A stretch of 34,464 nucleotides of DNA. Source: a virus. How positions within the stretch are numbered: the first letter of the stretch is position 1; each line of letters opens with the position of its first letter. The stretch lies in the IMG/VR virus record IMGVR_UViG_3300034167_000202, positions 1 to 34,464 of that record. The stretch is one strand, 5' to 3'. The notes under the pieces were generated by a model that worked only from the letters and a program-made list of their open reading frames with translations, ran no database searches and was not told the DNA's origin. Below, piece after piece: positions 4,332-22,494 of the stretch. The translations under genes and the position numbers were made by a program.

Positions 4332-5246
4332 TTAGGCAGTATATTGGTAGAACGCGATTTCGTTTCCGAAACCGAATTGTACACCTGCGAAGAAAGAAGC
4401 TGCGAAACGTACGTTGTTTGAAAGGTCATGTTCAAACATATCCAAAACTGCAACGTTATTCCATTGGTCAAGAGTGTTTGTACCAAACCAAAGGTTAGAC
4501 TTTTGGTAGAAAGCCATTGTGTCGTCAGACATTCCTGGGCATTCTACAACGTCATACTGTCCCTGCCAGTTCATTACAACTGCCTCTCCTTGATAAAGGT
4601 AGAAACCACCACCAAGACCTAAGATAGCTGTTCTGTACGCCTCAGCAACGTTAGAAGAAACTGCGATGATTGGCTTCTCAGTAGCGCGACGAACGCGTGT
4701 TGGAAGAGTAAGAACTAAACGTCCCATTTCCTCAATTACGTTTGCAGAAGTGATAGCCTCTGGAGTAGCAACGGTAAGAACACCGCTTCCGCCTGCTGCG
4801 AACAATGTTTCGAAACCGTCGTATTGACCTGCTGTTGCGTTAACACCCTGCCATATCAATACTTCGTTACGAGCTGCCATTCCTGCTAAAACGTTAGCTA
4901 TAATAGCGTCAGTCAATGAAGCGTGAAGTTGTCCGTTCTGCTCTGAGGACGATTCCCAATCTTTCAAAAAGTCATTTTTGCACAATTGTCTGTGAATTTG
5001 GAATTTTTCCAAAGTCAAGATACGCTCGCTTAATGCAACTGTTCCAAGTGGAGTGAAGTCACAAGTTGGTGCTTCGAAAGTGATGTCGTCAACCAACTTA
5101 CGAACTACTTGCTTGTAGTCAATGTTCTCTTTGAATGTAACAGCAGACAAAGACTCGTTACTTAAAAATGCAGCGCGAATGTAACCGCCTGCTACAGCTC
5201 CTGAAAAGGTGCTGTTAATTGGGTTTGGGGATAATGTAGTAGCCAT
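4332..5246 (-). CDS. Major capsid protein, HK97-fold type
   Basis: A 304-aa protein that would form the icosahedral shell. Features that fit: location directly after a scaffold-like gene, usual length for a compact HK97-fold capsid protein, an N-terminal Ala/Gly/Ser-rich arm (first ~25 residues), a long central helix-rich part (HASLTDAIIANVLAGMAARNEVLIWQG, about residues 108-135) resembling the spine helix, and a C-terminal beta/Phe-rich end (VRFAASFFAGVQFGFGNEIAF). No N-terminal delta domain of HK97 size is present, agreeing with the separate scaffold. The ATG at 5246 follows a T/A-rich leader without Shine-Dalgarno. Identification is by context plus overall character. Confidence 0.8.
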   Translation of the reverse strand: MATTLSPNPINSTFSGAVAGGYIRAAFLSNESLSAVTFKENIDYKQVVRKLVDDITFEAPTCDFTPLGTVALSERILTLEKFQIHRQLCKNDFLKDWESSSEQNGQLHASLTDAIIANVLAGMAARNEVLIWQGVNATAGQYDGFETLFAAGGSGVLTVATPEAITSANVIEEMGRLVLTLPTRVRRATEKPIIAVSSNVAEAYRTAILGLGGGFYLYQGEAVVMNWQGQYDVVECPGMSDDTMAFYQKSNLWFGTNTLDQWNNVAVLDMFEHDLSNNVRFAASFFAGVQFGFGNEIAFYQYTA

Positions 5247-8966: not shown

Positions 8967-11839
8967 GCTCTTTCGATTATTGCGTTAACAACAGACGCTG
9001 TATTTGCGGTGAAAGCAATAGCACTTCCAACCGCTATATTGTTTCCCAAAGTATAAGCACTTCCGTCGTCGGTAATGGTTACAACAGGACTATTCTTTAC
9101 GTTGTCAATCTTGTTAATGATTAAGTCGTAAGGAGCGAAAACGGTAGCCGTTAAACTGCTCATGAAGTCAATAGTCCACGTTATCGTGTTGTCGTTTTCG
9201 CTATCAATCTTCCAGTTGCTGCCATCACTTACCAAAGTCACGACACTACCGCTTGTTTTTATTGTGTACGTTATTGCGCTTTCAATCTTTTGCCCTGTGT
9301 ATGCGTGAAGCGTTGCGCCATAATCGTCACTTGCTAACTTTATGCTGATTATTGTCCCTCTCGTTGCCTGTGCTGACGGAAGGTAAACATCAATATCTGC
9401 GGCTAAGTCAGTAAGTAAAATCGTTCTGTCGAAATTCGTTACTACATAATCGGTACTTATTGACCTTACTGGCTGTGATACCGACGCTCCAAAGTTAACA
9501 GGCGCACCAAATCGTGTTGGTGCTAACGTTGGTGCTTCCGATGTAATGAATGAACGTGTACCAATGTTTGGTACTGAAAAACAATTGCTCTTTGCAGAGT
9601 TCCAATAGTAGCCAAAGCGACGACAACAGTCTTCGGTTACTACCGCAGGATCTCCGTTCGGTCTTTCCCAATTTATAGTTTGGTCAAGGTTGGCGGTTAT
9701 AGGTAAAATGTCGCAGTCGTTGTCTATATCCAAAATACGAATAAGTTTTACTTTGGTCATATCCTGCTCACCAACAACGTAACCTTCGATGTCCAAGACT
9801 CTCCACCAAGAATCTACAATCCATATTTTATCTGACCATTGAAACGTAAATATGTCGTTTAGTGTTAGTGCAAACATTCCTTCTAAGATGCGCGCTTGTC
9901 CATCGTAAAGTTCACGATAGTAGTTTCTCCACCAACGGTTGTAAAGGTTGTCGTATGGCGGTGCTATGATTGTGTGAAGCGGTACTTCGGGAGCAAAGTT
10001 TAGGTCGCTATCTCCGACACTTGCGTTCATGGTTGAGTAGTTGTTCAAACACTTAACTGCCGTTTGCACTACGTCACCTGAAACCTCGTCAAACATATTA
10101 ACGAAGAAGTCTGCGAAGTAATAAAGTATGCGCGGTTTTGGTTGTACAAAGTTTCCTTCTCCACTAATAAAACGAGGAACGACAACATCGGTATTCTCAA
10201 CTGCTCGTGAAGGTGTTGGTGCGAATGCTAACTCAACTTTTTCTTCGCCAGTTGCAAACTCGTTGATTACTTCAAAGTCGTTTTCTGTTACCTCATAGCT
10301 TCCGAAGATGTGTCCGTTGTCTTTGTAGACGTTGTTGTAATAGTCTGAATCTTCTGTGTATGTGAAGGTGAACTTTGCTTTTTGAAGGTCGGTTGTTGGG
10401 TAGTACGTTATGTCTTTTGATAAATCAAGTTTCTCAGTCCAATCCAAAGTATTTCCGCTTCCGATGTATTCAACAAGTGGTTCAATGCGTAATGTGTTTG
10501 GAAGTGTACGGTCGGGAACAAAGGCAAGGTTAAACATCTTTTGAATAGACGTAATAAAGTCGATTTGCTTCATGTCTGGAGCGTTGAATTGCATCACGCA
10601 AGTATCTCCTATCAATGATGTTCCAACGCTTACTAATTCAACACCTGTTCCTGTGTAGTCTATATTTGCATTACCACCAAAATCTATTTCAAGACCACCA
10701 AATTGTTGGTATATGAAAGCTGAAAAATAAAACTTTACCGTATCACCTGCGTTCAGTTCGATAGTTATGTTTTGGTCGTAGCTTAAATCATTTGTTCCTG
10801 CACTTCCTAAACTAATTGAATCGTAAAATGTAGTTTGTGCGTTGTTTATAAACGTGAAATAACCAAATTGAACCTGACTTACTCCAACCGCTCCTGTCGG
10901 TGTTGCTTGTCCGTGCATCCAACACTTGAATGTAAATGTCCCTGTGAATGGTGCGGTGTAAATCCCACTTGCCCAATCACTCCCTGCATCTTCGTATTCT
11001 GTGAATTGAGTGTATAAATTATACAACGAACCCGAACCAATAGGACTGAATGAAATGTTGTTCACGTTAGTAGCAAGACCTACGTTTGAAGCTATGTCAT
11101 TAAGTCCGTTTGAAGCGTTCAAATACTGACCATTGACAAAAGGAATATAAACGTTGTCAAGCATATCTAAAAGACTTGCACTTGCCCATTGAACGCCTGC
11201 GTCCTTCAAGATTTGGTCAAACAAATAGTAAGCCTTCACCGCAGGTGTCAAGTGTCCCACATAAAGAGGTTTGTACGTCGGCTGACCTGCAATAACAGTT
11301 GAGTAAACAGGTTGTCCAAGTGGATTACTTGCCGTTAAGTTCCACTTGTCGCATAGCGTTAATATCGTATTGTCGTTAGGTGGCGTTTCTACGTTAGCGT
11401 GAAGCAAATCATAGTCCAAGTCACCTGCAACAATGCTCTCAATATCTCTTAGTTTCTTTTCGTTTAGTAAGCGTGAAAGATTGGGTACTTCACCGAAAAA
11501 CACAACCTCAAATTCGAACAACTTTCCACTCTGCCAATAAAGTTTCTTCACCTGAATGTGACCACTTGCTATTGGGATAGTGTTGACTGTTAGTGTTGCG
11601 GTTACCTTCTTTCGAAAGTCAAACCATCCGTTGAAGTTAACGTTGAAGATAGCACCGAAGAAATCTACGTTTGTTGCGCTTGCTGGTATGCGAAACTCCT
11701 GCGAGTAGCTGCCGACAGAACTAAAGTTCGTGAGATCCGTAAACTTGTAGTTGAGGTGCATCTTCTCATTTTCGTAGAGGTCAATCGTTGACGCGTTGCC
11801 GTTGCTATCGGTTAACGTTAGTATTACTTCGTTCATCAT
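8963..11839 (-). CDS. Large distal tail / baseplate protein with fibre-like C-terminus
   Basis: A 958-aa virion protein. The first ~110 residues (ILTLTDSNGNASTIDLYENEK, SYSQEFRIP) resemble the N-terminal domain of Bacteroidetes phage tail proteins lying beside the tape measure. A middle beta-rich region contains a sandwich-type module (IYTAPFTGTFTFKCWMHG, about residues 290-385), which may bind sugars. Hub-like sequence follows with many Trp/Tyr residues. The last ~170 residues carry a fibre module (YVVTNFDRTILL, AADIDVYLPSAQATRGTIIS) common in tail spikes. It starts with ATG-ATG, overlapping the previous gene by ATGA. Probably the tail tip hub that carries host contacts. Confidence 0.75.
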   Translation of the reverse strand: MMNEVILTLTDSNGNASTIDLYENEKMHLNYKFTDLTNFSSVGSYSQEFRIPASATNVDFFGAIFNVNFNGWFDFRKKVTATLTVNTIPIASGHIQVKKLYWQSGKLFEFEVVFFGEVPNLSRLLNEKKLRDIESIVAGDLDYDLLHANVETPPNDNTILTLCDKWNLTASNPLGQPVYSTVIAGQPTYKPLYVGHLTPAVKAYYLFDQILKDAGVQWASASLLDMLDNVYIPFVNGQYLNASNGLNDIASNVGLATNVNNISFSPIGSGSLYNLYTQFTEYEDAGSDWASGIYTAPFTGTFTFKCWMHGQATPTGAVGVSQVQFGYFTFINNAQTTFYDSISLGSAGTNDLSYDQNITIELNAGDTVKFYFSAFIYQQFGGLEIDFGGNANIDYTGTGVELVSVGTSLIGDTCVMQFNAPDMKQIDFITSIQKMFNLAFVPDRTLPNTLRIEPLVEYIGSGNTLDWTEKLDLSKDITYYPTTDLQKAKFTFTYTEDSDYYNNVYKDNGHIFGSYEVTENDFEVINEFATGEEKVELAFAPTPSRAVENTDVVVPRFISGEGNFVQPKPRILYYFADFFVNMFDEVSGDVVQTAVKCLNNYSTMNASVGDSDLNFAPEVPLHTIIAPPYDNLYNRWWRNYYRELYDGQARILEGMFALTLNDIFTFQWSDKIWIVDSWWRVLDIEGYVVGEQDMTKVKLIRILDIDNDCDILPITANLDQTINWERPNGDPAVVTEDCCRRFGYYWNSAKSNCFSVPNIGTRSFITSEAPTLAPTRFGAPVNFGASVSQPVRSISTDYVVTNFDRTILLTDLAADIDVYLPSAQATRGTIISIKLASDDYGATLHAYTGQKIESAITYTIKTSGSVVTLVSDGSNWKIDSENDNTITWTIDFMSSLTATVFAPYDLIINKIDNVKNSPVVTITDDGSAYTLGNNIAVGSAIAFTANTASVVNAIIERA

Positions 11840-13071
11840 AAGCCAACAGGTTGAGAGTATTTAAGGTTCAAAGTAACGTTGTATAGTTTCGAATATCTTT
11901 CGTCCTTGATAACAAAGTTTTGCGTGTCCACAAGAACAGGTGTCATTGTCGCATCATCACCAATTATGAACACGTCGTTCGAACGACAAAGCGTTTGTAA
12001 CAATTCGAACTCACCAACGCTTATCCAATCGCTATTTATTTGTAGTCCTTTGGTCGTGTTCACATAGCGGTCAGTTGTTCCTCTGTCCCAAGTATTGAAA
12101 GCAAACGATGCCGTGTTGTATGAACCAACTACTTTTTGATATTGCTTACGATCGTAGTTGAACGACAATTCCGACTTCTTCGTGAAGTTGAAGTAATCCA
12201 CACCACCGCAAGTATTTGTCCAACCCAAACGCACGTTGTCAAAGCGACAATCGTCAGCGACAATGTAAAAACAATACACGCGTGAATAAGGTGTGTAAAT
12301 GGGAAGAACAATAGGCGCGCCTGCTTGTATTGTATAGTATTTGACATTGGTGAAGTCTAATCCTTCATTGATTAAGTTTTGTGGATTTGCACCCAAACGA
12401 CAAACTGAATTTGTATCTGTAAATAAAGTGAAATTAGTTTGCGCAATTAACGTGTTGCTGTTGTCGTATGTTGACACAAATAAATCTGTTGCATCGTTAT
12501 CCACTAAAAGACCGTTGTTACTTATCGAATACAACTGTCCAAAGTCAGCTAATCGAGTAGGTATGTACACCCAATCGTTTGACAAACCACGCGCTGGTGC
12601 TTCGCTCCATTTGTGCGTGTCTGTTGTGCGTTCGCTCAACAAGTATTTTGATGTGTTCGACAAAGCATAGCGTGCGTTTGGGTTTGGTTTGTAGCCGTCG
12701 CTTACTTGATATTCAGCAAGGAAAGCGTACACGTCGTCAATTGATGCAGAACCCGTATTTGTTCCCGTGAATACTCCGTCAATCAACCAACCTTCTTTTA
12801 TTGAGCAGCTTATATTTGCAACACTTTTATACTCGTCGTTAATCCCTTCATTTGCTGCGCCTGCATCGTGTTGTAGTTGCTCACGAAATATCGGTGCGAG
12901 GTCTAACATTCCTTTGTTGCTCGCGTTGGGTTGTACGTTGACTTGGAACGCACCGAAGTCAAACACGAAACGAAAGCCTGCGTTTGCCACGTTGGTTGAA
13001 CTGCACACAATCATCAATCTTTGTCCGATAGGTGTATACTGGTAAGGTTGGTCGTCTATTGTAATTGCCAT
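11836..13071 (-). CDS. Tail protein (distal tail type)
   Basis: A 411-aa beta-rich protein starting MAITIDDQPYQYTPIGQ. The C-terminal half has the pattern WTNTCGGVDYFNF, later R-KQYQKVVGSY, WISVGEFELLQTLCRSNDVFI and NVTLNLKYSQ, seen in a group of Bacteroidetes phage tail proteins beside the tape measure. No enzymatic motif is evident. It lies between the HK97-gp10-like gene and the large tail tip protein, overlapping the latter by ATGA. Likely a baseplate component linking tube and tip; exact role uncertain. Confidence 0.7.
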   Translation of the reverse strand: MAITIDDQPYQYTPIGQRLMIVCSSTNVANAGFRFVFDFGAFQVNVQPNASNKGMLDLAPIFREQLQHDAGAANEGINDEYKSVANISCSIKEGWLIDGVFTGTNTGSASIDDVYAFLAEYQVSDGYKPNPNARYALSNTSKYLLSERTTDTHKWSEAPARGLSNDWVYIPTRLADFGQLYSISNNGLLVDNDATDLFVSTYDNSNTLIAQTNFTLFTDTNSVCRLGANPQNLINEGLDFTNVKYYTIQAGAPIVLPIYTPYSRVYCFYIVADDCRFDNVRLGWTNTCGGVDYFNFTKKSELSFNYDRKQYQKVVGSYNTASFAFNTWDRGTTDRYVNTTKGLQINSDWISVGEFELLQTLCRSNDVFIIGDDATMTPVLVDTQNFVIKDERYSKLYNVTLNLKYSQPVGL

Positions 13072-13081
13072 TATATTGTTT

Positions 13082-13618
13082 TTATATGTCGTTTAATCCT
13101 TCTAAACTTGCTCCGAAATCTTTGCCAAATGCCTCAACCAATTTCGCTTCGTATTCATCCCAAATGTTCTCCATTGCGTAGTCGAAAGCGTGCCACCCTT
13201 TTATTCCTTCCTTGCCTATTTTGCGAGCAATTAAAAAAGCCACTTGTCTTTTAAGTGCTTCCGTTGGCTTCTTAAACTTACCGCTTTCCTTGTCGCGTAA
13301 CTTGATAGGCTTCAATCGCATCCAATCAAGAATTGCGCTTACTGGTGGCGGTGTCGCTCCTGCTCTGCGTCCGTTCTCACGTGCAAGAAAGTATTGCGAC
13401 GCTTTCCCCTTTGCGTATATTGAAATGTCTATTGACTTTCCTTTTATCTTCAACCTATAAGCTAACGACTTTACAAGCGTACCACTTGACACCGCATTCG
13501 TGTAGTTGCGTCCCACCTTCCGTTTAAGTCGGTAGTCGGACTGCATCAACTCAACAAAGCGTTTCGCCATGTCGTTGACCACAGCGAAGAAGTTGGGTGC
13601 GCTCTGTTCGTTAGGCAT
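13082..13618 (-). CDS. Tail completion / head-tail joining protein (HK97 gp10-like)
   Basis: A 178-aa basic protein. The pattern NFFAVVNDMAKRFVELMQSDYRLKRKVG at the start, then SSGTLVKSLAYRLKIKGKSIDISI, YFLARENGRRAG, and a long helical C-terminus (LKRQVAFLIARKIGKEGIKGWHAFDYA) is that of small head-tail or tail completion proteins of the HK97 gp10 kind. These usually sit between head and tail genes; here it is among tail genes. It overlaps the end of the 83-aa gene by eight bases. Function by similarity of layout; moderate certainty. Confidence 0.65.
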   Translation of the reverse strand: MPNEQSAPNFFAVVNDMAKRFVELMQSDYRLKRKVGRNYTNAVSSGTLVKSLAYRLKIKGKSIDISIYAKGKASQYFLARENGRRAGATPPPVSAILDWMRLKPIKLRDKESGKFKKPTEALKRQVAFLIARKIGKEGIKGWHAFDYAMENIWDEYEAKLVEAFGKDFGASLEGLNDI

Positions 13619-20476: not shown

Positions 20477-20830
20477 CTACCCTAATTTTCCTTTGTAATG
20501 GTTAATAAGTTGTTCCATTCTGCTGTCGTAGTATTTCGAGAACGTCTTAAACCCGTCGTTGTCTTGTTCGTACATTCTAAATAGAACATTGCGTAAACGT
20601 TGTGAGGGCTTCTTAAGCGTATCTTCAAGTTCACTCTTAAGACTTTCAACTGCATCCAGTTCTTCGCGCTTGAAATCTTCGTCTTTAAAAGCAAGATAAC
20701 CGAATTGATTTGCGATAGTGAATAGTTCACTTGCCTGATTAGGTGAAAGTTCATTTGTTCCAAAGGTTAGTTTAAGCGTCTTGTCCTTTCGCGTACCTAC
20801 GCTTTCGAGTTGAGCTGGTATAATTATCAT
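20477..20830 (-). CDS. Conserved hypothetical phage protein upstream of the small terminase
   Basis: A 117-aa protein: short beta start (MIIIPAQLESVGTRKDKTLK), then LSPNQASELFTIANQFGYLA and a charged C-terminal region (KKPSQRLRNVLFRMYEQDND, YYDSRMEQLINHYKGKLG). Proteins with this LKLTFGTNELSPNQ-type centre recur in phages of this group, often close to terminase or recombination genes, but remain unassigned. It overlaps the end of the 131-aa gene by four bases. Confidence 0.65.
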   Translation of the reverse strand: MIIIPAQLESVGTRKDKTLKLTFGTNELSPNQASELFTIANQFGYLAFKDEDFKREELDAVESLKSELEDTLKKPSQRLRNVLFRMYEQDNDGFKTFSKYYDSRMEQLINHYKGKLG

Positions 20831-21222
20831 TTGTTTAATATGATTGAATTGAATTCGGTTTCTGCGTTTATAATGTAAGTTGTAATTTCCTTATGAAGCG
20901 TATTAATGTTAAAAGCAATTTCGTAAAATTCCAATTCAATAGCATCTGCTTCAGCCATTAAGCAACAGTCCAAAAAGTATTGAGTGTTAATAGTTGATTG
21001 ATTACCTGCGTGATATCCTAACCAAAATCCTTCTATCAAACCATCTGAATTGCCATTGTAATATAAAAATTTATAATTGTTACCTTTAATATTACTTTTT
21101 AACATAGCCCATGAAGCACCGTCAGTTTGGAACTTATCGTCATTAATAAAACCATAGTTTTTATCAAACCATTTTATTTGATGTTCTGGAACTATTACAA
21201 GTTTTGTTTCAGTAAGTGTCAT
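20827..21222 (-). CDS. Hypothetical protein, first gene after the structured leader
   Basis: A 131-aa acidic protein with many aromatic residues (MTLTETKLVIVPEHQIKWFD start, FLYYNGNSDGLIEGFWLGYH centre, helical end AETEFNSIILNK). No family recognised. Its coding sequence is more AT-rich than most of the leftward arm, suggesting recent gain. It is the first clear gene downstream of the promoter at 21536-21565 and of the structured untranslated region, so that leader may control it and the rest of the packaging/tail operon. Confidence 0.6.
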   Translation of the reverse strand: MTLTETKLVIVPEHQIKWFDKNYGFINDDKFQTDGASWAMLKSNIKGNNYKFLYYNGNSDGLIEGFWLGYHAGNQSTINTQYFLDCCLMAEADAIELEFYEIAFNINTLHKEITTYIINAETEFNSIILNK

Positions 21223-21530
21223 TGTATGTCATTAAATTTATAAGTATGTCACTAAATATGCAAAGAAAAGAAAAGAACAAAGAAAACGTGTAAGCACTAT
21301 AAAGAAAGAACAAAAGAAAAAGCTCCCCCAAAAAGATTACTCTTGCCCTTAAAAGGGCAGTTGCACGATCCAAGCATTGATGTATTGCAAGTGTAGTCAT
21401 TGGTTACTTCGCTGTGACTTACGAAGGCGGTTGTTGTTCTTATCCAGTTTGTTTCTTACTTAAAAAATATACCCCCAATTATTTCAGCCGCCAAGCAAAA
21501 ATAAAAGGGGGTAGTATCGCATTGCTTGGC
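21223..21530 (-). ncRNA. Candidate structured RNA or regulated 5' leader with pseudoknot
   Basis: About 300 bases without a convincing gene, starting at a well-formed leftward promoter. Near the predicted RNA 5' end, gccaagcaa (21490-21498) pairs with ttgcttggc (21522-21530) for nine base pairs, and within its loop gggggta (21507-21513) pairs with taccccc (21470-21476): interleaved arms, that is, a possible pseudoknot. A C5 run on the plus strand at 21325-21329 offers a competing partner. Further stems are cttcg/cgaag (21407-21411 with 21422-21426) and a 7-bp palindrome tgccctt/aagggca (21344-21350 with 21353-21359). A long pyrimidine tract follows (21259-21322). It could be a small RNA, a leader controlling the 131-aa gene, or both. 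A 63-codon frame at 21209-21400 overlaps it and is judged doubtful. Confidence 0.45.
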
Positions 21531-21535
21531 TGTAA

Positions 21536-21565
21536 CAAATATACTTTGAATGTCATTCGTTACAA
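21536..21565 (-). promoter_or_regulatory. Leftward Bacteroidetes-type promoter upstream of the structured region
   Basis: On the leftward strand TTG (21565-21563), 19 bases, then TATATTTG (21543-21536) match the Bacteroidetes -33/-7 consensus TTTG...TAnnTTTG exactly in spacing and -7 sequence. Predicted start is around 21530, the first base of the nine-base-pair stem. It would serve the RNA and the packaging/tail operon. Confidence 0.6.
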
Positions 21566-21572
21566 CAATAAG

Positions 21573-22013
21573 TTATTCACCTATTTCAACAACAACGTCC
21601 TTCATTGAATCGAGAAAGGTGTTGATGTCTTTCTTCACGCAAGGTGGACACGTTGAACGCTCGTTGAACGCTCCTGTGGCTTTATCCTTGAACGAATAGA
21701 ATCGAAGCATATCATTTTGTTCCAACTTCCCTTGCGCCTTCATATCGAGCAAGAATCGTTTGAACTCTATTTGTTCCTCAAGTGAAAGAACACCGTTCCA
21801 TTTTGACGCAGGACAGGAAGCGAAGGCGAGTTTTGCTTTGACTGGCATCACACAACCGCACAACTTAATTGACTTCTTTCTGAATTTCACTTCAGTTTCT
21901 ACTTCGTCGCCTAAAATTAAAGTACCGCACGACTGCGTTGAAGGTTCGAAGAATTTACACGCTCGGCATATATCTAAGCGTCTTTTGTACTCATTGTGTT
22001 TTGCGAATAACAT
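21573..22013 (-). CDS. Cys-rich, probably zinc-binding protein
   Basis: A 146-aa protein. The N-terminal half has CRACKFFEPSTQSCG (first two Cys three apart, then one 11 residues on), LCGCVM and CPASKW, a constellation that could hold one or two zinc ions. Near the C-terminus CPPC is a further pair. The middle (LSLEEQIEFKRFLLDMKAQG) is helical. Similar proteins occur beside sigma-like genes in Bacteroidetes phages without known function; a transcription co-regulator is plausible. It overlaps the sigma-like gene by 23 bases. Confidence 0.65.
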   Translation of the reverse strand: MLFAKHNEYKRRLDICRACKFFEPSTQSCGTLILGDEVETEVKFRKKSIKLCGCVMPVKAKLAFASCPASKWNGVLSLEEQIEFKRFLLDMKAQGKLEQNDMLRFYSFKDKATGAFNERSTCPPCVKKDINTFLDSMKDVVVEIGE

Positions 22014-22494
22014 TGGCTCTTATTTTTTGTTTGATATTATCAATGGTTCGATAAAGGAATGGTGTAGGTATTCCCGTTTGTTTGGATAGTTCACGATAGG
22101 TAAAATCTTCAAGTATGTATTCCTGAAAGATTAGACGTTCAAACTCGCTCAGTCGACTGATTAGAATGTCCAGTTGCTCGTTTGTCATCCTTGCGCCTAA
22201 CCAAGTCTTGTCAACTTCGTGAGCGTAGTCTTTGAAGTCGCGGCGGTTTCTGTTCCAAGCAATAGTCTGTTTGTAGAAAGGCGACGTTGGACTATTGACG
22301 GCTAAGTACATTACACGAATTAAATAGAACTCAAAGTCGCCTGTGTCGATTAGGTTTTCGATATGCTTTGAACCAAACATAGAAAGTAAAGAGTCGTGCA
22401 ATAAGTCTTCGTAGTAATCCTCACCTCGCGAGATATTCTTCGCAAGTTCTTTGAATTTTTTGTAATGTCCTTCTATGTATTGGTCAAGTTTCAA
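21991..22494 (-). CDS. Sigma-70-like RNA polymerase sigma factor
   Basis: A 167-aa protein likely to direct host RNA polymerase to phage promoters. Residues 22-65 resemble sigma region 2 (GEDYYEDLLHDSLLSMF, the usual acidic helix). Residues 117-160 resemble region 4, a helix-turn-helix (SEFERLIFQEYILEDFTYRE then LSKQTGIPTPFLYRTIDNIK). The start must be TTG at 22494, because a TAA stop lies four codons upstream in frame and the next ATG is past region 2. A weak start may keep its level low. Three 21-bp-phased repeats lie directly before it, and a promoter-like site lies inside the upstream gene. Confidence 0.65.
   Translation of the reverse strand: MKLDQYIEGHYKKFKELAKNISRGEDYYEDLLHDSLLSMFGSKHIENLIDTGDFEFYLIRVMYLAVNSPTSPFYKQTIAWNRNRRDFKDYAHEVDKTWLGARMTNEQLDILISRLSEFERLIFQEYILEDFTYRELSKQTGIPTPFLYRTIDNIKQKIRANVIRKTQ

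Follow-up and report, generated by a model that had tools for sequence, protein, structure and literature searches.

A pseudoknotted RNA element with a terminator-like tail directly follows a promoter box in uncultivated freshwater phages

At positions 21543–21462 (minus strand) of a virus record of 34,464 bases, referred to here as the window, a TAnnTTTG promoter box is followed directly by an H-type pseudoknot and a conserved run of U residues. The pseudoknot is in register with the predicted +1 of the transcript and is independent of the kind of RNA that follows it. Judged by sequence comparison, this pseudoknotted RNA element is real, its shape being kept while its letters change. The chances are about even that it works as a 5'-locked pseudoknot terminator (attenuator) heading a noncoding or leader transcript. 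The viruses that carry the element are a large group of uncultivated, widespread freshwater phages infecting Bacteroidota-type bacteria; the nearest relatives of the window's large terminase are those of Flavobacterium phage 11b (49%) and then Cellulophaga phage phi10:1 (47%).

The element of the window runs, on the minus strand, in the order P1a, L1, P2a, UU, P3a, P1b, L3, P3b, UU, P2b, and U-run. The first transcript bases are the 5' strand of P1 (GCCAAGCAA, 21522–21530), which pairs over 9 bp with TTGCTTGGC (21490–21498) within the apical loop of the P2/P3 hairpin. P2 (7 bp) is formed by TACCCCC (21507–21513) and GGGGGTA (21470–21476). P3 (6 bp), formed by TTATTT (21499–21504) and AAATAA (21479–21484), was overlooked in the original prediction and stacks on P2 across an internal loop with UU on either side (21505–21506 and 21477–21478); the promoter, nine-pair stem, and seven interleaved pairs of that prediction are found base for base. 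The U-run UAUUUUUU (21462–21469; 7 U of 8) abuts P2 as a terminator-like tail.

The P2/P3 hairpin has a ΔG of about -20 to -22 kcal/mol with z -5.25 to -5.8 (ΔG -22.2 kcal/mol and z -5.25 for the hairpin of the window alone). For all 313 nt the minimum free energy does not stand out (z -1.16), since a pseudoknot cannot be represented in nested folding. If the helices are taken as ideal A-form and stacked coaxially, L1 has to span approximately 45–50 Å, needing 7–8 nt, and L3 approximately 21–25 Å, needing 3–4 nt; the loops observed in the phage group of the window (group 1), 8–11 nt and 5–6 nt, respectively, suit these spans, so all three helices can form together. The window has 52 TAnnTTTG sites, of which only one precedes such an element; none of 300 dinucleotide shuffles shows one, at thresholds that were set after examples had been seen. 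The 9-mer of the P1 5' strand and its complement, which might mark a target in trans, have no other copy in the window.

The promoter of the window (21536–21565) consists of TTG (21565–21563), 19 spacer bases, and the box TATATTTG (21543–21536). The full promoter match that had been claimed holds for the window and fails as a conserved feature: among 52 distinct homologous upstream regions the -7 box TAnnTTTG is kept in all 52, and the -33 TTG in 5. The TAnnTTTG box of Flavobacterium psychrophilum occupies positions -12 to -5 (PMC9723704), a spacing that puts the predicted +1 of the window at 21531 and the start of P1 (21530) at +2. In 48 of the 52 regions P1 starts at +1; the other 4, which include the window, have it at +2.

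Homologues were collected from viral contigs with the neighbouring gene for a 146-aa protein (80 loci) and by DNA patterns (approximately 80 element-bearing stretches), giving an alignment (A1) of 48 distinct versions of the group 1 element. Standard pairs fill 99.9% of its 960 pair cells, a proportion that falls to 41–53% when partners are slid by 1–3 columns. Both strands change together at seven pairs: four of the eight counted pairs of P1 (UA/CG, GC/AU, CG/UA, and AU/GC/CG), two of P2 (CG to UA or the reverse), and one of P3 (AU to GC or the reverse; 9 versus 39 sequences). With two interleaved helices, both supported by covariation, the fold is an H-type pseudoknot. Shuffles never match the observed pairing or covariation score, scores that are inflated by relatedness among the sequences.

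L1 varies freely in sequence, and the UU/UU loop is invariant, its 5' side in 48 of 48. The U-run reads UAUUUUUU or AUUUUUUU in nearly all of the 48, whichever RNA comes next. In most members the outermost pair of P2 shows a two-sided change (UA/AU), by which the hairpin keeps abutting the U-run. A column pair within the apical loop also covaries (CG in 32, UA in 16) and would form a mini-hairpin; its columns are close together, with two linked states only, and may record a single event. Two loci depart from the usual arrangement. L141 has two differing copies in opposite orientation (11200–11283, plus strand, and 13053–13135, minus strand), likely a chimeric assembly, and in L173 (7394–7477) a recombinant element joins a P1 5' strand of one type with a 3' strand of another, leaving about five P1 pairs.

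A diverged phage group (group 2; L099, L100, and L182–L203) shares with group 1 the order of genes around the element (146-aa protein, sigma-like protein, terminase), at identities of 25, 37.5, and 59%, respectively. Its head has the same architecture made from entirely different helices, and P1 starts at the predicted +1. Three helix sets are found: AGGGUG/CACCCU with GCCCU/AGGGC and GGAUG/CAUCC; AUGUGUGAGA/UCUCACACAU with GCCUCC/GGGGGC and AGCG/CGCU; and AUGCGC/GCGCAU with CCCC/GGGG and GAACG/CGUUC. The UU/UU loop is kept in the first two sets and is present in most of group 2, and all three sets have a U-rich tail. The loops of group 2 (L1 of 32–41 nt, L3 of 0–3 nt) give a geometry that is not identical to that of group 1. 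A 61-kb contig, IMGVR_UViG_3300034168_000141 (L026 and L100), contains phage regions of both groups and is possibly two genomes joined.

In several sister contigs (L031, L036, L039, and others) the element is missing from its usual place, and these contigs have a cassette in inverted orientation instead. Behind a TATATTTG box on the opposite strand, the pairing of ACTCGTTAA/TTAACGAGT interleaves with that of TTGCCCC/GGGGCAA, a U-rich tail comes next, and the unit is directed away from the virion genes. In L079 the cassette has a compensatory change (ACTCGATT/AATCGAGT), and no Rfam family matches it up to E 3. The cassette may be either a true homologue or an analogue of the head. It lies at 4430–5190 in L031 and 4435–5200 (minus strand) in L036, with further copies in L039, L043, L046, L047, L053, L055, L058, and L078–L080; its U-rich tail is followed by a long non-coding-looking stretch and a small gene (MSKINKKAKQELF...), a relative of which lies in forward orientation in L084.

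The RNA behind the head is conserved and structured and comes in two different kinds, type (a), which the window has, and type (b), which many relatives have. Type (a) (21344–21426, minus strand) consists of three hairpins, 21426–21407, 21390–21361, and 21359–21344 (alignment A3 and folding), and bears out the further stems that had been expected downstream. Its compensatory changes include CUUCG/CGAAG to CUGAG/CUCAG and GCCC/GGGC to GCUC/GAGC, some of them distinguishing group 1 from group 2. Type (b) (L084, 4548–4860; L106, 2797–3081; L182, 4828–5113) is approximately 290 nt long with 63 predicted pairs and 20 two-sided changes; in L084 it has a terminator-like hairpin at its 3' end, at about 4800–4860, before the next genes. 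Each type is found in group 1 and in group 2, and within group 1 an identical P1 stands before either; heads and follower RNAs therefore reassort, which makes the head a module. In type (b) the U-run doubles as the 5' strand of a 9–10-bp stem of the next RNA. This U-run is invariant although its partners in the stem drift between A and G, which suggests that it is under a second constraint.

Farther downstream is a long CU/U-rich tract (21250–21321, minus strand), the U-rich tract of the original prediction. A tract of this kind is conserved in group 1 and group 2 alike and might be a Rho loading site or a ribosome landing region. The second G5 that had been proposed as a competing partner in a switch between two folds is present (21325–21329, minus strand; 147 bases on, against the approximately 145 expected); the switch itself finds no support, since the G-run has anywhere between 4 and 7 G, is missing from L113 and L163, and in L021 does not respond to a compensatory P2 change. 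Pairing of the P1 5' strand with a downstream CAAUGCUUGG of type (a) was likewise rejected; it is available in some members only, and P1 changes while the downstream sequence stays constant.

An overlapping 63-codon frame (21209–21400, minus strand) is not a gene, and the coding constraint that would have spoken against an RNA element did not appear. Several relatives have AAG for its ATG, L189 has both AAG and a TAA stop in frame after five codons, relatives shift frame at the G-run, and the synonymous fraction (0.33 versus 0.27 expected) gives no codon signal; the first approximately 19 codons do stay in frame in all group 1 type (a) relatives. The central claim, a promoter box directly 5' of a pseudoknot-forming, gene-free RNA, is upheld. 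The original prediction had placed the RNA before the first gene of the packaging/tail operon. It does precede virion genes, but it need not be an mRNA leader, because a similar head sits on the inverted cassette that points away from the virion operon and because most type (a) relatives have a TAnnTTTR box just 5' of the first gene.

The minus-strand order of the window is a sigma-factor-like gene (21991–22494), the gene for the cysteine-rich 146-aa protein (21573–22013), the element, small genes, and virion genes. The 146-aa protein, which has several conserved cysteine pairs and whose gene lies immediately 5' of the element in group 1 and group 2 alike, is a candidate regulator. It matches only phrog_13558 (annotated as of unknown function) and none of the Pfam families searched, similarity to known antiterminators is not detectable, and its AlphaFold model is poor (pLDDT 61, too low for a fold search). 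The place right after the leader, 20827–21222 in the window and its equivalent in relatives, is a hot spot for accessory genes. The first gene behind the leader varies among relatives (in L192 it is HNH-endonuclease-like, as judged by eye), and the 131-aa gene of the window is 93% identical in L100, as compared with 25–61% for most neighbouring genes.

The original prediction recognized no RNA family here, in agreement with a search of all 4227 Rfam families against the window, which gave no match at the gathering threshold and nothing relevant at the element up to E 5. No nucleotide match was found among 50,697 records of isolated phages, and no model match in 296 Bacteroidota host genomes, a search run without a positive control. 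Pattern matches outside the phage group (L002, L003, L007, L008, L110, and L121; L136, L157, L161, L177, and L180) are chance by inspection and model search. A literature search found no paper on RF02932 or on a pseudoknotted terminator with such a layout.

The 5'-locked terminator is suggested by the hairpin anatomy together with the U-run in both downstream contexts, the tracking of that run by the outermost P2 pair, and the burial of the +1 base. Transcription would start at 21531 or 21530, and about nine bases at the start (P1) would base-pair within the apical loop of the hairpin formed by P2 and P3. The hairpin and UAUUUUUU would then be built like an intrinsic terminator, with the loop bound to the 5' end of the same RNA. 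Polymerase may then either release a compact RNA of approximately 70 nt with a buried 5' end and a predicted 3' end at 21462–21469 or continue by read-through into the type (a) RNA and on to the genes that follow. The likely control point is the choice between the pseudoknot and the plain terminator hairpin, because P1 would be complete before the 3' strands of P2 and P3 are made and because the covarying mini-hairpin of the apical loop would compete with P1. A phage or host factor, for which the 146-aa protein is a candidate, may bias this choice. A broader proposal is offered tentatively: with its first-transcribed bases clamped into the loop of its terminator, the head would be a new regulatory architecture, interchangeable in front of two or more unrelated phage RNAs that are large and structured, and the start position of RNA polymerase would decide between termination and read-through.

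The conserved U-run before two unrelated RNAs favours termination, while the A/U-rich upper hairpin, with its internal loop, argues against it, and the stem of the next RNA may be part of the reason why type (b) relatives keep the U-run, which would also count against a terminator. The chief rival, itself rather doubtful, is that the pseudoknot is the 5'-end-protecting head of a stand-alone noncoding RNA (the pseudoknot with type (a) or (b)), shielding it from decay or processing with no termination involved. Such a head would account for the start of P1, which coincides with the predicted first base in almost every member, for the swapping of the head between two unrelated structured RNAs, and for an analogous head on the reversed cassette, which is not transcribed into the virion operon; the promoter-like box just 5' of the first gene in many type (a) relatives and the part that the U-run plays in the first stem of the type (b) RNA fit as well. 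It leaves unexplained the constant abutment of P2 and the U-run, the invariance of the U-run while its partner drifts, and the presence of the U-run ahead of type (a), for which no stem of that kind is predicted.

A put-like antiterminator, in which a nascent RNA of approximately 70 nt binds the elongating polymerase and makes it resist later pauses and terminators, is less likely than a protecting head and on the whole improbable. Size and place agree with those of HK022 putL, which is about 70 nt long and lies right behind its promoter (PMC9378689), and type (b) relatives have an extra terminator-like hairpin before the next genes. Against it, put has two stem-loops, whereas the element is a single pseudoknot with a U-run at its end; the P1 sequence and the loops vary freely while the U-run is constant, and the inverted cassette does not head a long operon. 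An H-type pseudoknot riboswitch that controls termination in response to a metabolite or an ion is very unlikely: the genes behind the element vary, Rfam gives no match even at E 5, and L1 is unconserved in sequence, leaving no conserved unpaired pocket besides the UU/UU loop. An H-type pseudoknot with a terminator-like tail is nonetheless a common riboswitch layout. Least credible is a type III toxin-antitoxin system, a family in which a pseudoknotted antitoxin RNA is followed by a terminator and then a toxin gene; the pseudoknot, the terminator-like tail, and the small variable gene behind them recall it, whereas the element is single copy with no tandem repeats, an identical P1 occurs with both downstream RNA types, and the first gene varies rather than being a conserved toxin gene.

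The element is thus a covariation-supported RNA at a key transcription junction whose architecture outlives its sequence, and its study opens up two further families of structured phage RNAs, types (a) and (b). If the 5'-locked terminator is the true reading, it would be a compact and possibly protein-free way for the 5' end of an RNA to set its own termination.

Among known systems, the intrinsic terminator or attenuator has in its textbook form a GC-rich hairpin and then a U-tract of 7–8 nt (PMC6606751). The element likewise has, just after a promoter, a stem with five G-C pairs (P2) directly 5' of 7 U of 8; unlike the textbook form, its apical loop pairs with its own 5' end, a pairing conserved by compensatory change. 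The nascent put RNA of HK022 binds the zinc-binding domain of the RNA polymerase β' subunit and suppresses distant terminators (PMC9378689); it resembles the element in being about 70 nt long, immediately downstream of a phage promoter, and structured from the 5' end, but its two adjacent stem-loops are not found in the element, and similarity is not established. The late control region of lambda (Q, pR', and tR') has the same succession of a small regulatory-like gene, a promoter, a short terminator-like leader, and virion genes; the element differs in being pseudoknotted, in having further structured RNAs behind it, and in the inversion of the unit in a sister group, and no Q homologue is detected next to its promoter, where the 146-aa protein was examined. 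The preQ1, SAM-II, and fluoride riboswitches share the fold topology of the element, which has neither an Rfam match nor a conserved binding pocket. The first two hairpins of Betaproteobacteria-1 RNA (RF02932) are matched weakly by type (b) (32.7 bits in L084 and 28.6 in L100), below the gathering score of 49.4, and type (a) of the window has no match to this family. Set beside these systems, what appears to be new is the topology of a terminator-type leader, in what is probably a previously undescribed RNA control element.
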